Source of the DNA: an uncultured Lachnospiraceae bacterium
GTDB taxonomy: Bacteria > Bacillota > Clostridia > Lachnospirales > Lachnospiraceae
Length of the DNA: 9,465 bases
NCBI GenBank assembly: GCA_947174725.1
Contig: CAMWKA010000046.1
Span: 1-9,465, forward strand
Reading direction: 5' to 3'
Every line of letters begins with the position of its first letter. Positions within the stretch are counted from its first letter, which is position 1. The notes below the pieces were generated by a model. That model did not search any database. It saw only the letters and a program-made list of their open reading frames with translations, and had not been told where the DNA came from. Made by a program: the position numbers and the translations under genes. Positions 1,418-9,410 of this stretch are shown here, one piece after another.

Positions 1418-3268
1418 TCAAAAATCGGCAGATTGGTACTTTGGACAGGTCTGTTCCTTCAGCCATGCCCTCTCATCCTCTGACAGATGCGGAGACAGCC
1501 GATCATAAACCATCCGATGATATTGATTCAACGCTTCGATATCGCTTTTTTCCATATAGGAAAGATCGATTCCTTCCGGATCCAGCGGCACCAGCGTCAA
1601 TGGTTTAAATCCCATAAACTGACCGTCTTCATTACAATCCCTCTTTTCACAAAGCAGGATATTTTCAATCCGGATGCCATGGCTTCCCGCAATATAAACC
1701 CCCGGTTCATCAGACACCAGCATGCCTTCCTCCAGAACCGCTTCCTTCGCGTTACCGGAGCGCCAGCTGATATTCTGGGGGCCTTCATGGACACTTAACA
1801 TATAGCCAACGCCATGGCCTGTACCGCATTTATAATCCATCCTCTGCTGCCACAGGGGACCTCTTGCAAGGATATCCAGATTACGTCCCGTACAGCCGTA
1901 TAAAAACACTGCATTCTGCAGTCTCAGCATCCCCACGGCTGCCAGCGTGTAATGCTTTTTCATCTCCTGTGTGATGCTTCCCATAATGATGCTTCTTGTC
2001 ACATCCGTAGTGCCGCCCTCGTACTGTCCGCCGGAATCTACCAGATAGATTCCCTCCGGTCTTAACACCGCATCCCTTCCGGGCACTGCCTCATAATGCA
2101 TCATTGCCGCATTCGCTCCATAAGCGCTGATAGTCGGGAAAGACAGATCCATAAACCCTTTTATCTTCCGGCGATATTCCTCCAGTATCTTTGCGGCCCC
2201 ACTTTCCGTCAGCCCATCCTTCCGATGCTCTTTGATATACCGGATATACCTTGTGAGCGCAACACTGTCTAAAAGATAGACCTGCTCTATATGTCCGATC
2301 TCAACCGGATTCTTGACCGCCTTCATGAGTTCCGTCGGATTCTTTGTTTCCACCGTCTCCGCATGCTCTTCAACAATCCTGCAGACCGTATAATTGACCA
2401 CTCCGGGATCAAGCATCACCTTTGCTTTTCTTCCAAACGTTTTCTCCGCCTGTTTCAGATGCTCCGGAAGTTCCCTGATAAAATTCTGATACGGATGCCA
2501 TTCAATACCGTTCACCTCTGCAAAACGGACATTCTCCTCCTTCTCACGCAGGGCGGCTATGGATTTTTCCTTCAGATAGACGATCACCTTTTCTTTTGAG
2601 ATCAGGGTAAATGCATACGCCACCGGATTGCATGTAATATCGTCTCCCCTGATATTAAACAGCCACATCTGGTCTTCTAATCCGGAAAGCAGCAGATGAT
2701 CCGCTTTCCGCTCCTCCATCTTCTCCCTGACGCGCAACAGCTTTTCGCTACAGGTTTCCCCAGTCAGCCTTTCCTCTAAAATGCGTATGGGAGCAGCGCT
2801 GTCAGACGGTCTGTCCGCAAAAACGGATCCTGCCAGATCATTCTGATAGACGATTTCACCCTGCATTTCTTTCATAAGCTTCTCCAGTCTTTTTCCAAGA
2901 GAAGCATTCACACAAAATCCATACAGTCCCAGTTTCATGCCTTCCTTTAGATGTGATTTCAAGTATTCCTCCAACTCCGGAACACCCTGCTGCCTGCTTC
3001 TCATCAAAAGGATGCCTGTACCTTCCAGCTCCTGTTCTGCCTGTACAAAATATCTTCCGTCCGTCCAGAGCAGACATTCCTCCTCCCCGACCAGAAGATC
3101 TCCGTTAGAGCCGGTAAAGCCCGACAGAAATTCCCGTTCCTTATAATGATCATTAATATATTCCGATCCGTGAGGATCTGCCGTCACTACCAAATAATAA
3201 TGCACCCCGGCAGCTTTCATATTCTGCCTGAGTGCATGGATACGTTCCCTGATGACCTTATTTTCCAT
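1418..3268 (-). CDS. pepP: Xaa-Pro aminopeptidase (aminopeptidase P, M24B, long form)
   Basis: Cytosolic metallopeptidase that removes an N-terminal residue preceding proline. The protein has about 616 residues, the length of the long three-domain form: two creatinase-like N-terminal domains (about 5-310), the M24 'pita-bread' catalytic domain (about 335-545) and a C-terminal extension. All five dinuclear metal ligands are visible: Asp411 (VDSGGQ), Asp422 (GTTDVTR), His485 (GTGHGVG), Glu521 (SDEPGVY) and Glu535 (RIENI). No signal peptide is seen. I place the start at the ATG at 3268, which has GAGGG four bases upstream and AGGAAGG just before it. The frame also has an ATG at 3292 (8 residues longer), but its upstream sequence is a poorer ribosome site. 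The gene follows the aldolase fusion by 45 bases and ends just before a terminator, so it is probably the last gene of the unit. Confidence 0.95.
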   Translation of the reverse strand: MENKVIRERIHALRQNMKAAGVHYYLVVTADPHGSEYINDHYKEREFLSGFTGSNGDLLVGEEECLLWTDGRYFVQAEQELEGTGILLMRSRQQGVPELEEYLKSHLKEGMKLGLYGFCVNASLGKRLEKLMKEMQGEIVYQNDLAGSVFADRPSDSAAPIRILEERLTGETCSEKLLRVREKMEERKADHLLLSGLEDQMWLFNIRGDDITCNPVAYAFTLISKEKVIVYLKEKSIAALREKEENVRFAEVNGIEWHPYQNFIRELPEHLKQAEKTFGRKAKVMLDPGVVNYTVCRIVEEHAETVETKNPTELMKAVKNPVEIGHIEQVYLLDSVALTRYIRYIKEHRKDGLTESGAAKILEEYRRKIKGFMDLSFPTISAYGANAAMMHYEAVPGRDAVLRPEGIYLVDSGGQYEGGTTDVTRSIIMGSITQEMKKHYTLAAVGMLRLQNAVFLYGCTGRNLDILARGPLWQQRMDYKCGTGHGVGYMLSVHEGPQNISWRSGNAKEAVLEEGMLVSDEPGVYIAGSHGIRIENILLCEKRDCNEDGQFMGFKPLTLVPLDPEGIDLSYMEKSDIEALNQYHRMVYDRLSPHLSEDERAWLKEQTCPKYQSADF

Positions 3269-3313
3269 ACTGCCCTCAATCCTTCCTCGCATTTTAAAAC
3301 GCCTTTAAAACCC

Positions 3314-4414
3314 TTATTTTATAAAGTCAGCCGTGGCTGATGCCCCGATCCGGTCACAGCCAAGCTCCGCAAATGACATCAACGCTTCTTTCGTGCGGAT
3401 CCCACCAGCCGCCTTGATCTTTACATCCTTACCTATGTTATCTTTAAACAGTATAATATCCTCTTCCTTTGCTCCTGCCGTACCAAATCCGGTGGAAGTT
3501 TTGATATAGTCCGCTCCCGCCTTTGTTACGATCCGACATAAACGGATCTTTTCTTCCTCTGTCAGATAGCAGGTCTCAATAATGACTTTTAAGATCTTCC
3601 CCTGACATGCCGCGCGTACAGCTCTGATCTCCTGCTCCACAAAATCATAACTGTCATTTTTCACATCCCCGATATTGATCACCATATCGATTTCATCCGC
3701 GCCATTTTTCACAGCATCCTCTGTTTCAAATACTTTCACCGCAGTAGTCGCATATCCCAGCGGAAAGCCGATTACCGTACAGATCTTCAATCTGTCGCCA
3801 TATGTTTCCCTGATCCTTGCAATGTAAGACGGCGGCACACAGACGCTTGCTGTCTGATATTCTATCGCTTCCTCACACAGCTTTCTGATATCTTCCCATG
3901 CCGCATATGCTTTTAACATCGTATGATCGATCTTATGAACCGCCTCCCATACCTCTTCATCTGTATAGTCCCGTTTTTCCGCTGTCCCGCCTAAGCGAAG
4001 TCCCGAAAGCGATTCCTCTTTAGTTTCCCCAAGAAGATCTTTACGCATATCCTCCATCTGCAGAACCTTCTCGATCCTGCCTAACATAGCCTCCGCCTTA
4101 AAGGGCTTCGTAATAAAATCCATCGCGCCCATTTGCAGTCCTTTGCGTTCACTTGCCTGCTCGACATCCGCCGTCAGAAAGATGATGGGGATCCCGGCCG
4201 TCATTGGGTTCAATTTGATCTGCTCCATGACGGAATAGCCATCCATCTCCGGCATCATCAGATCCAGAAGGATCAGATCCGGTATATTCTTTTTTAAGAA
4301 CTGTAGCGCCTGTTTTCCTGATTTCGCCATGGACAGTTGATAATAGGGATGCAGGACTTCCGCCGCGCTCTTTAAATTTGTCGTGCTGTCATCTACCATC
4401 AAAATGTGTTTCAT
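3314..4414 (-). CDS. deoC: CheY-like receiver domain fused to deoxyribose-phosphate aldolase
   Basis: One 366-residue frame with two complete domains. Residues 1-120 are a response-regulator receiver with every functional position: acidic pair Asp8/Asp9, phospho-acceptor Asp51 (LLDLMMPEMDG), Thr81 (FLTAD) and Lys103 (TKPF). After a linker (about 121-152), residues 153-366 are a full DeoC TIM barrel of the usual short length (about 215 residues), with Asp243 (ADEIDMV), the Schiff-base Lys305 (ADYIKTSTGFG) and Lys334 (IKAAGGIRT). The aldolase cleaves 2-deoxyribose-5-phosphate to acetaldehyde and glyceraldehyde-3-phosphate. No DNA-binding output domain is present; the enzyme occupies that place. 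The ATG overlaps the thrC stop by four bases (ATGA), implying translational coupling. No nucleoside-catabolism partners (phosphorylase, phosphopentomutase, kinase) are next to it. Whether phosphorylation alters aldolase activity is inference. Confidence 0.93.
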   Translation of the reverse strand: MKHILMVDDSTTNLKSAAEVLHPYYQLSMAKSGKQALQFLKKNIPDLILLDLMMPEMDGYSVMEQIKLNPMTAGIPIIFLTADVEQASERKGLQMGAMDFITKPFKAEAMLGRIEKVLQMEDMRKDLLGETKEESLSGLRLGGTAEKRDYTDEEVWEAVHKIDHTMLKAYAAWEDIRKLCEEAIEYQTASVCVPPSYIARIRETYGDRLKICTVIGFPLGYATTAVKVFETEDAVKNGADEIDMVINIGDVKNDSYDFVEQEIRAVRAACQGKILKVIIETCYLTEEEKIRLCRIVTKAGADYIKTSTGFGTAGAKEEDIILFKDNIGKDVKIKAAGGIRTKEALMSFAELGCDRIGASATADFIK

Positions 4415-5901
4415 ATCCCCAAAAATCCTCTTACCATCGTCTGCATCTCATCTTTTTCACATACGGTATCATGAAGCACCGGAGCCTGTCTGATCTCCTC
4501 AACTGCATTAGGCACCTCCACCTTAGAAATCTTACATAATTCATCTATCAGCGCAAAATCATCCAGATCCTGATAGGAAGAATCGATGGAAGTCATAACG
4601 CTTCTTGCAAATTTATAAGGACTTGCCGTAGACGCAATGACGCTGACACGCTCATCCCCCGCATCCGCCTTATACGTTTCATAGACCGCAGAAGCAACCG
4701 CCGTATGCGTATCGATCACATATCCTGTCTTTTCATACAGTTCCCGGATCTTCTTTGCCGTCATTTCTTCCGACGCATATCCGCCGTAAAAATCAGCAAG
4801 TTTTTCTTTCATCCCGGAAGTAATTTCATACACACCGGTTTCCGTAAGCTTTGACATCAACTCCCTGTTCTTTTCCGAATCACAATCCGAGATCATATAA
4901 ATCAGACGCTCCAGATTACTGGAAATCAGGATATCCATAGACGGGGAACTGGTCAATACAAATTCCCTGTTCCTGTCGTAAACGCCGCTTTGAAAGAAAT
5001 CATATAATACTTTGTTTTCATTTGACGCGCAGATCAGCTTATGTATAGGAAGTCCCAAATTTTTCGCGTAATATGCCGCCAGAATATTTCCAAAGTTACC
5101 GGTCGGAACGACAACATTGATTTCATCGCCCTCCTGTATCTTTCCATTTTTCAACAGATTCACGTATGCATAAACATAGTAAACGATCTGTGGAACAAGA
5201 CGCCCGATATTGATGGAATTGGCAGAAGAAAAGACAAAGCCATGTTCCTTCAGTTCTTTTTTCAATTCCTGATCGGAGAACATCTTCTTTACACCGGTCT
5301 GGGCATCATCAAAATTGCCCCTGATACCGATGACTTTGACATTCTTCCCTTTCTGCGTCACCATCTGTTTTTCCTGTACCGCACTGACACCATTTTTCGG
5401 ATAAAATACGACGATCCTTGTTCCTTCCACATCCGCGAAGCCTGCCATTGCAGCCTTTCCGGTATCCCCGCTGGTCGCTGTCAGAATGACGATCTCTTCT
5501 TTTAATTGATTCTTCTTTGCTGCCGTCGTCATCAGATAAGGAAGAATGGACAGTGCCATATCCTTAAACGCAATCGTTGCCCCATGAAAAAGCTCCAGAT
5601 AATAAGCTCCATCCGCATAAGTAAGCGGCGCGATCTCCTCTGTATCAAACTTACTGTCATATGCGCTGTTGATACAATGCATCAGTTCATCCTTTGTATA
5701 ATCGGTCAGGAATAATTTCATCACTTCATAGGCAATCTGCCTGTAATCCATAGAAACCATATCCCTAAATCCAAGATCTAATTCCGGCAGGCGGTCCGGG
5801 ACATACAATCCGCCGTCACCCGCCAAACCCTGTAATACCGCCTTTGATGCGGTAACCTTTTCGCCCGCATTTCTTGTGCTGCTGTACATGATATCCATCA
5901 T
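4411..5901 (-). CDS. thrC: Threonine synthase (PLP-dependent)
   Basis: Converts O-phosphohomoserine to threonine and phosphate, the last step of threonine synthesis. The protein has 496 residues, close to the long threonine synthase form. It begins with the family's N-terminal YSSTRN segment and has GDGGLYVP at about 28-35. The PLP-binding Lys113 sits in GATIAFKD, where the family more often has GPT. The phosphate-binding loop TATSGDTGKAA follows at 141-151 and a PTGNFGN motif comes near 268. The first ATG has AAGGA at good spacing upstream; a second ATG follows at once and could also serve. The stop codon overlaps the start of the receiver/aldolase gene. An extended -10 promoter lies about 35 bases upstream, and no riboswitch or attenuation leader fits in the 28-base untranslated region. 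Confidence 0.96.
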   Translation of the reverse strand: MMDIMYSSTRNAGEKVTASKAVLQGLAGDGGLYVPDRLPELDLGFRDMVSMDYRQIAYEVMKLFLTDYTKDELMHCINSAYDSKFDTEEIAPLTYADGAYYLELFHGATIAFKDMALSILPYLMTTAAKKNQLKEEIVILTATSGDTGKAAMAGFADVEGTRIVVFYPKNGVSAVQEKQMVTQKGKNVKVIGIRGNFDDAQTGVKKMFSDQELKKELKEHGFVFSSANSINIGRLVPQIVYYVYAYVNLLKNGKIQEGDEINVVVPTGNFGNILAAYYAKNLGLPIHKLICASNENKVLYDFFQSGVYDRNREFVLTSSPSMDILISSNLERLIYMISDCDSEKNRELMSKLTETGVYEITSGMKEKLADFYGGYASEEMTAKKIRELYEKTGYVIDTHTAVASAVYETYKADAGDERVSVIASTASPYKFARSVMTSIDSSYQDLDDFALIDELCKISKVEVPNAVEEIRQAPVLHDTVCEKDEMQTMVRGFLGI

Positions 5902-6731: not shown

Positions 6732-6833
6732 CCACATAGCAAATCCGGGTTATCAAAAGACATCAACCTTCCGGTCGTATGATGAACATCTTACGGTCAT
6801 GCATTGAGAAAAGGACTGATATTAAGAATCAAT

Positions 6834-7643
6834 ATGAACGCGAAAAAAGAAGGAAAACATCTTGCCGGTGTCACACCAGCCAGAAAAAAGGATCATACCG
6901 TTTATTACCGCGCTTCCATAACATACCGTGGAAAGCATATCAGTCTTGGCAGCTTTTCGACGGCACAGCAGGCGCATATGGCTTACAGAGAAGCATCTTC
7001 CATTCTGTCTGGTCCAAATGCTGTGCTGGAAAAATATTCTTCTGCTTCCGCGCTCTCTTTTGAGAAACGGGTATGCCTTATTAATTACCGTGATAACGGC
7101 ATCTATATCGCGCATCCCATCTACATTCGCCCTAAAATGTTTTATTACTATTTGTCACCGGATGAAATCTTAAAATTTGATGTAGATGATCTTTTTTACT
7201 ATTCTTCTCATAAGATCATGAAGCGGGGCGGTCATCTTTTTGTCGCCGATTACGGCGCCCAGATCAGCGTGGCAGGCAGATACGGCATCAAACGTTATGC
7301 TGTAGAAGGACGTGACTACCGCTTTAAAAACGGAGATCCTCTGGATTTCCGTTATTCCAATATCGAGATCCTAAACTCCTATCATGGCGTCAGACGTCAG
7401 GAAATAAACAATAAAGTATCTTTCCGTGCTTTGATCCATATCAAAGGTAATTATGTGATCGGTACTTATCCAACTGAGCTCGAAGCAGCGGTCGCCTATA
7501 ATAAAGCTGTGGATCTCCTGCATCAGAAGGGTGTGCAAAAAAAATACGCCATCAATTTTATTGACGACGTAAGTTCCTCGGAATATGCAAAAATTTATAA
7601 ACAGATCAAAATCTCCAAGCGAATAATGGATTATACTCCATAA
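6834..7643 (+). CDS. AP2-type DNA-binding protein with degenerate HNH core
   Basis: A 269-residue protein if translated from the ATG at 6834. Residues 22-60 look like an AP2 fold (YYRASITYRGKHISLGSF, then TAQQAHMAYREA). Residues 183-243 form a second, clearer AP2 domain (YHGVRR, IGTYPTELEAAVAYNKAV, YAINF). Between them, 132-182 resembles the HNH_3 unit of AP2 homing endonucleases (GDPLDFRYSNIEIL corresponds to the family's G-N-x-L-D-N-R-x-x-N-L pattern), but the catalytic histidine motif is replaced by RDYRFKNG. It therefore probably binds DNA without cutting it; a regulatory role is inference. The start is uncertain. A TTG at 6804 would add ten residues; neither start has a well-spaced ribosome site, the nearest AAGGA being 18 bases before the ATG. 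It is the only plus-strand gene here and has its own promoter. Confidence 0.8.
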   Translation: MNAKKEGKHLAGVTPARKKDHTVYYRASITYRGKHISLGSFSTAQQAHMAYREASSILSGPNAVLEKYSSASALSFEKRVCLINYRDNGIYIAHPIYIRPKMFYYYLSPDEILKFDVDDLFYYSSHKIMKRGGHLFVADYGAQISVAGRYGIKRYAVEGRDYRFKNGDPLDFRYSNIEILNSYHGVRRQEINNKVSFRALIHIKGNYVIGTYPTELEAAVAYNKAVDLLHQKGVQKKYAINFIDDVSSSEYAKIYKQIKISKRIMDYTP

Positions 7644-8975: not shown

Positions 8976-9347
8976 TCAATCCAAGTCAAGCCAGAACGCC
9001 GGCACATAACATTCTTTATATTGAGGACAATTCGGATAATCCTCCAGCAAATATTGTTTCAACGTTTCATTACTTTCAAAATAAGTAATTTCATCTGCAG
9101 GGATTTCACTGAACCAGCCATCGCTATATTGGCTTTGAGGACCTCCAAGTCCACAAGCCGGATGACTATCATGTACATGACACCACCAAGTAAATCCTTT
9201 GATCTTGATACCCAATTGTTCCATACAATCTATAAATTCACCGATATTTTCAACAGGACAAATCAAATCTATGTAACCATTTCCAACAGGCTGGATATGG
9301 AGCTTTTTCATAATATTATCAAGATTATTTTTCAATTCAAAATCCAT
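8976..9347 (-). CDS. Small conserved-looking cytosolic protein of unknown function; possible immunity protein
   Basis: I do not recognise a named family. About 123 residues from the ATG at 9347, with no signal peptide or membrane helix. It has a distinctive central block: GFTWWCHVHD, then CGLGGPQSQYSDGWFSEI, and a C-terminal end PAFWLDLD. The mix of Trp, Cys and Gly in fixed motifs after an N-terminal alpha/beta segment (GNGYIDLICPVENIGEFIDCMEQLGIKI) suggests a real folded domain. Start choice is uncertain: the frame reaches an ATG at 9395 with no ribosome site, while the ATG at 9347 has AAAGAG about ten bases upstream. Its GC content (about 35-38 percent in lines I counted) is well below the adjacent GH25 gene (above 50 percent in places), suggesting separate origin. 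It follows the end of another gene closely, the arrangement of many toxin/immunity pairs; that role is inference. Confidence 0.75.
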   Translation of the reverse strand: MDFELKNNLDNIMKKLHIQPVGNGYIDLICPVENIGEFIDCMEQLGIKIKGFTWWCHVHDSHPACGLGGPQSQYSDGWFSEIPADEITYFESNETLKQYLLEDYPNCPQYKECYVPAFWLDLD

Positions 9348-9410
9348 AGCAGTCACGCTCTTTATATCGAAATGTATCGTTTTGAATTTTATCATAGGTA
9401 TCTACGCGAT

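Follow-up and report, generated by a model that had tools for sequence, protein, structure and literature searches.

A receiver and an aldolase in one reading frame

We have analyzed a 9,465-nucleotide contig from an uncultured Lachnospiraceae bacterium (CAMWKA010000046.1 of assembly GCA_947174725.1; hereafter the window), in which one gene encodes a phosphoacceptor receiver (REC) domain joined to a complete deoxyribose-phosphate aldolase (DERA, or DeoC). The gene and its parts are as follows.

3314..4414, minus strand: gene for the REC-DeoC fusion, with an ATG start and 366 codons before the stop (open reading frame, Pfam, NCBIfam)
4073..4405, minus strand: receiver (REC) domain, residues 4–114 (Pfam PF00072), with the codon of the phosphoacceptor Asp51 at 4262–4264
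3962..4030, minus strand: linker, about residues 129–151, predicted to be disordered and variable in length and sequence (AlphaFold2 predicted local distance difference test, pLDDT; ratio of nonsynonymous to synonymous substitution rates, dN/dS; alignment of fusions)
3326..3940, minus strand: deoxyribose-phosphate aldolase domain, residues 159–363, with Asp243, Lys305 and Lys334 (TIGR00126, alignment with E. coli DeoC, Foldseek)

An original prediction, made from the nucleotide sequence alone, described a single uninterrupted frame at 3314..4414 without stating its strand. The frame is confirmed and is open on the minus strand only, the plus-strand reading of 3314–4414 being interrupted by stops. 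Pfam Response_reg (PF00072) matches residues 4–114 with 89.6 bits (cut-off 30.2), Pfam DeoC (DeoC/LacD aldolase) matches residues 162–348 with 78 bits (cut-off 23.8), and the NCBIfam deoC equivalog TIGR00126 matches the fusion protein with 244.1 bits (cut-off 117.3). The top sequence matches among solved structures are DERAs, with PleD as the best match to the receiver, and the aldolase part of the predicted model matches solved aldolases in Foldseek (50 rows listed). The Pfam scan gave no match to PF00990 (GGDEF) in the fusion protein, which separates it from the PleD-type REC-GGDEF regulators.

All eight residues named in the prediction are present, five in the receiver (Asp8, Asp9, Asp51, Thr81 and Lys103) and three in the aldolase. 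Asp102, Lys167 and Lys201 of E. coli DeoC, which we take to be the catalytic residues, align on Asp243, Lys305 and Lys334, respectively. All 21 aligned fusions (the window protein and P0001–P0020) share D8, D9, D51, T81, D243, K305 and K334 without variation. Each of the 39 receivers from the compared loci has D51, T81 and K103, and the 38 that extend over D8 and D9 all have these as well. A receiver and a complete enzyme are here combined in one natural, conserved chain, and the protein is most likely a response regulator with an enzymatic output.

The join itself is genuine and is shared by relatives. Full-length fusions account for 20 of the best 120 of 7,999 scored database matches, with 63–96% identity; these matches reach down to 317 bits, and fusions of distant lineages scoring lower fall outside them. 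The fusion is also found in seven of 35 genomes of the genus (G000, which is the window's own, G323, G304, G305, G331, G300 and G312). The two sets overlap partly, since some of the 20 proteins are identical or almost identical to those of the seven genomes. An assembly or sequencing artefact joining two genes, which the prediction had named as a possible refutation, might be suspected since the assembly is incomplete (72.67% complete, 321 contigs) and the window makes up a single contig of 9,465 bases in it. The same join occurs in six other genomes of the genus and in the 20 database proteins, with linkers that differ in length and sequence. This recurrence at one locus excludes a chance or assembly join, and the probability left to an artefact is negligible. 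It also removes a second refutation named in the prediction, absence of the architecture from all relatives. Among the matches listed for 299 family genomes, of which two belong to this genus, the row of the window alone spans both domains, and the distribution of the fusion therefore looks narrow.

Two further candidates were rejected. In G328, an open frame with a length of 527 pointed to a triple REC-GGDEF-DeoC fusion, but the sequence has stops between the genes. A REC-DeoC fusion in L081, suggested by the range of its match, is actually a stand-alone DeoC of 218 residues. Separately, a 455-residue open frame in L242 (G181) has DeoC following an N-terminal part that resembles hexapeptide repeats when read by eye.

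TIGR00126 has exactly one match in 33 of the 35 genomes of the genus (32 above the cut-off; that of G306 is a piece at a contig end) and none in G318 and G319, whose completeness is 72% and 81%, respectively. The sole match in each of the seven fusion genomes is the fusion; four of them (G323, G331, G300 and G312) are 97–99% complete, and that of the window 72.67%. On the evidence of these genome sequences, the fused DeoC is the only recognizable DERA of the cell.

The thrC-pepP slot and the origins of the fusion

The fusion gene is flanked by two conserved neighbors.

4411..5901, minus strand: thrC (threonine synthase), directly upstream; its stop overlaps the start of the fusion at 4411–4414
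1418..3292, minus strand: pepP (Xaa-Pro aminopeptidase-like), directly downstream

We compared this slot in 34 loci of the genus, the window included, and five outgroup loci. Six of the seven fusions sit between thrC and the Xaa-Pro aminopeptidase gene; for the seventh, in G331, the contig ends inside the fusion and the peptidase side alone is visible. In eleven genomes of the genus, thrC is followed by a REC-GGDEF-like gene of ~294 codons, next by a separate deoC and finally by pepP (the neighbor type). In another fifteen (L184–L189 and L191–L199), the REC-GGDEF-like gene lies between thrC and pepP, and the slot has no deoC. The search of the genus genomes returned no match in G319. The locus of G306 is divided across two contig ends and is labeled 'SEP' (deoC elsewhere) in our trees; it is probably of the neighbor type, as its deoC end piece adjoins pepP at the contig end.

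The receivers of the unfused genes in the genus have 72–85% identity to that of the window over up to 122 residues. All five outgroup loci have an intact GGDEF motif, which is degenerate in all 27 REC-GGDEF-like proteins of the genus (G306 included). In a Pfam scan of five of the latter, three pass the GGDEF cut-off, L197 falls just below it and L198 has no match. In G236, from a different genus, thrC is directly followed by a bare receiver with a length of 121 residues (L226, 6025–6390, minus strand; also L245, 4025–4390, minus strand). Because REC-GGDEF, its degenerate form, the DeoC fusion and a bare receiver all occupy this slot, it is best described, from gene order and homology, as holding one conserved receiver with changing outputs. 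By the same comparison, the fusion gene occupies the place of an orthologous REC-GGDEF regulator whose GGDEF output has given way to the neighboring deoC.

Several trees bear on how often this took place. On a 39-row tree built from the two flanking proteins, ThrC and PepP, three changes are needed to account for the fusion, and the starred (well-supported) branches force three. The DeoC tree (27 fusion rows and 29 others) needs four, its starred branches force two, and a single clade of fusions is rejected (approximately unbiased test, p-AU 0.0009). Within this tree, G312 and P0018 group with eight deoCs of the neighbor type (support 100/99), and the nearest relative of the fused clade of the window is a stand-alone DeoC, P0021. 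The neighbor-type and fused deoCs together are separate (98/95) from deoCs located at other sites of the genome. Of the 15 genomes whose slot has no deoC, 14 were sampled, and their deoCs lie elsewhere and form their own group, apart from the neighbor-type and fused deoCs (86/75). About three fusion origins are likely from these trees, with two as the safer minimum, and the GGDEF output of a conserved regulator has apparently been swapped for the neighboring deoC more than once. The flanking tree contradicts a single origin spread by transfer and the DeoC tree rejects it; the short REC domain, taken by itself, does not. One early fusion that was later split is judged implausible, since it would need a recreated GGDEF domain homologous to that of the outgroups. 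ThrC-REC and DeoC-PepP, which are close neighbors too and serve as an internal control, have no fused frame in the compared loci.

Two other genes of the window have no Pfam or NCBIfam match. The first (6804–7640, plus strand) encodes a protein of 279 residues with repeated stretches that resemble AP2 when read by eye; 21 genomes, outgroup genera included, have it next to thrC, out of 39 with excised loci, many of which end sooner. The second, an open reading frame of 139 residues (8979–9395, minus strand), occurs elsewhere among the compared loci only in G323.

Domain constraint and a possible mode of control

Within the clade of the window, the dN/dS of five closely related fusions is 0.022 for REC, 0.244 for the linker (residues 121–156) and 0.074 for DeoC, compared to 0.056 for ThrC and 0.100 for PepP. 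These values, from 10 pairs that are not independent (6 for ThrC), are rough since the mean synonymous divergence (dS) is 0.47–0.93. REC is the most constrained part of the protein after fusion in this clade. As the strongest purifying selection falls on it, a receiver carried along as a decaying passenger is ruled out here. In four unfused groups, dN/dS is 0.006–0.016 for REC and 0.009–0.061 for the GGDEF-like part, at a dS of 0.7 to 2.7 that is near saturation. Thus, the degenerate GGDEF-like part, being constrained, is not simply junk.

The AlphaFold2 model, computed from 21 sequences, has a mean pLDDT of 81.7 and a predicted template modeling score (pTM) of 0.60. The long last helix of the receiver extends to residue 129, pLDDT drops below 50 at residues 129–146, and the next helix begins at residue 152. 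The linker differs in length and sequence between the aligned fusions. A linker that is variable and predicted to be disordered disfavors coupling through a rigid helix and favors coupling by proximity, through dimerization or recruitment. In the window fusion, moreover, the codons of residues 120 and 123 are in-frame ATGs preceded by purine-rich stretches, and an internal start may give rise to a shorter, free DeoC product.

We propose, with about an even chance of being right, that the protein is a response regulator with the only DERA of the cell as its output, in which phosphorylation of Asp51 is predicted to switch or relocate the aldolase. Asp51 would be phosphorylated by an unlinked histidine kinase or by acetyl phosphate, and the phosphorylated receiver would dimerize or dock on a partner. 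The original prediction had already suggested direct tuning by a histidine kinase or recruitment of the aldolase to a signaling complex, and this is still the reading that we favor. Aldolase subunits would be brought together, or to that partner, by proximity rather than via a rigid helix, and this would set the flux at which deoxyribose 5-phosphate is cleaved to glyceraldehyde 3-phosphate and acetaldehyde. Control of the aldolase by phosphorylation, through dimerization or recruitment, appears likely. Because the fused DeoC is the only DERA found, this metabolic step would likely be under the direct control of a kinase signal that bypasses gene expression. The genome of the window has 14 HisKA matches. 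Acetate kinase is present in all seven fusion genomes, which makes acetyl phosphate a possible donor, and acetaldehyde, as a DERA product, could feed the acetyl phosphate pool. The phosphopentomutase DeoB, which supplies the DERA substrate from nucleosides, is found in five of the seven, and was not found in G305 and G300. By the same logic as in the fused protein, DeoC is probably a trans target of the regulator in genomes where a REC-degenerate-GGDEF gene and deoC are neighbors. Each fusion genome contains 17–43 matches to other GGDEF domains, so signaling by cyclic di-GMP as such need not be lost. The broader proposal, that this receiver has repeatedly captured the only DERA of the cell and controls it by phosphorylation, while the unfused version with a degenerate GGDEF controls the neighboring DeoC in trans, is a tentative one that we place somewhat below even.

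A number of observations weigh against such control, or against its repeated origin. The Pfam scan detected no kinase gene within the window, and the receiver surface has no fusion-specific change beyond those of the unfused controls. The linker, being variable, offers no hint that the two domains share a fixed interface, and the bare receiver of G236 suggests that REC is able to work without an attached output. P0020 lacks K103 owing to a 12-residue deletion, the sole exception among the 21 fusions. The G331 fusion (L170) has an in-frame stop in REC, no more than 20 bases from the contig end, which may be a contig-end error or a real break. The REC tree, which is based on a short domain, needs four changes, of which its starred branches force one, and a single clade is not rejected (p-AU 0.094).

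The linker and the bare receiver are also what would be expected of an uncoupled bifunctional protein, in which a receiver (for example, a CheY-like single-domain regulator) and a housekeeping DERA were joined in frame by a chance deletion of GGDEF. One deletion would suffice, since the REC-GGDEF-like gene and deoC adjoin in 11 relatives, and each domain keeps its own constraint. However, about three separate origins are difficult to reconcile with chance when the other close pairs at the locus have stayed unfused. The constraint on the degenerate GGDEF in unfused clades (given above) makes it unlikely that its loss was free, and we regard the uncoupled protein as rather improbable. In a different arrangement, the receiver would serve only as a tether, bringing the aldolase to a signaling complex or a partner enzyme in a phosphorylation-dependent manner, with its intrinsic catalytic rate unchanged. 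The flexible linker would allow this, and receiver helix α1, a kinase-docking surface, has no fixed difference in the clade of the window. In contrast, α1 carries three fixed differences in the G300 clade and two in the G312 clade, and no partner is known; a tether of this kind seems to us distinctly unlikely.

Comparison with known systems

Control of the aldolase by phosphorylation of Asp51, the reading that we prefer, would place a phosphorylation switch on the route from deoxyribose to glycolysis and acetaldehyde. The protein would also be a natural template for a switchable DERA, an enzyme that is used in biocatalysis. Under the broader proposal given above, a signaling pathway would have given up a second-messenger output and connected itself directly to carbon metabolism. 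The intact GGDEF, the degenerate GGDEF, the neighboring separate deoC and the fused enzyme form an unusual comparative series, and since all four states are visible side by side at one locus, the evolution of a new signaling output can be followed and tested.

The original prediction knew of no described system of this kind. This does not hold for the class, since multiple instances of bacterial receivers attached to standard metabolic enzymes are described in the main text of PMC5847659 (citing Galperin 2006, 2010), which also names narrow archaeal cases. For a DERA output, the statement has so far stood: our literature searches returned no title or abstract opening naming a REC-DERA protein, although the Galperin 2006 and 2010 papers may contain such an entry. 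The main text of PMC5847659 contains neither 'aldolase' nor 'DeoC', and 'aldolase' is likewise absent from the main texts of PMC1183210 and PMC2674652. The response regulators with metabolic-enzyme outputs of the Galperin class resemble the fusion in having a receiver on an ordinary enzyme and in being narrowly distributed, typically within a single family or genus (main text of PMC5847659).

The PleD-type REC-GGDEF regulators are related to the fusion through its closest solved receiver, that of PleD, and through the REC-GGDEF orthologues in the same slot; they differ in that the fusion has DERA as its output instead of GGDEF. Compared to stand-alone DERA (DeoC, TIGR00126), the fused aldolase scores above the equivalog cut-off and has the catalytic residues. 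However, DERA is normally a separate protein, whereas the fused one forms the C-terminal output of a receiver, with no other copy found. In CheB and RegA, phosphorylation of the receiver controls the attached enzyme, as proposed here for the fusion, but those enzymes act on signals or receptors, whereas that of the fusion belongs to carbon and nucleoside metabolism.
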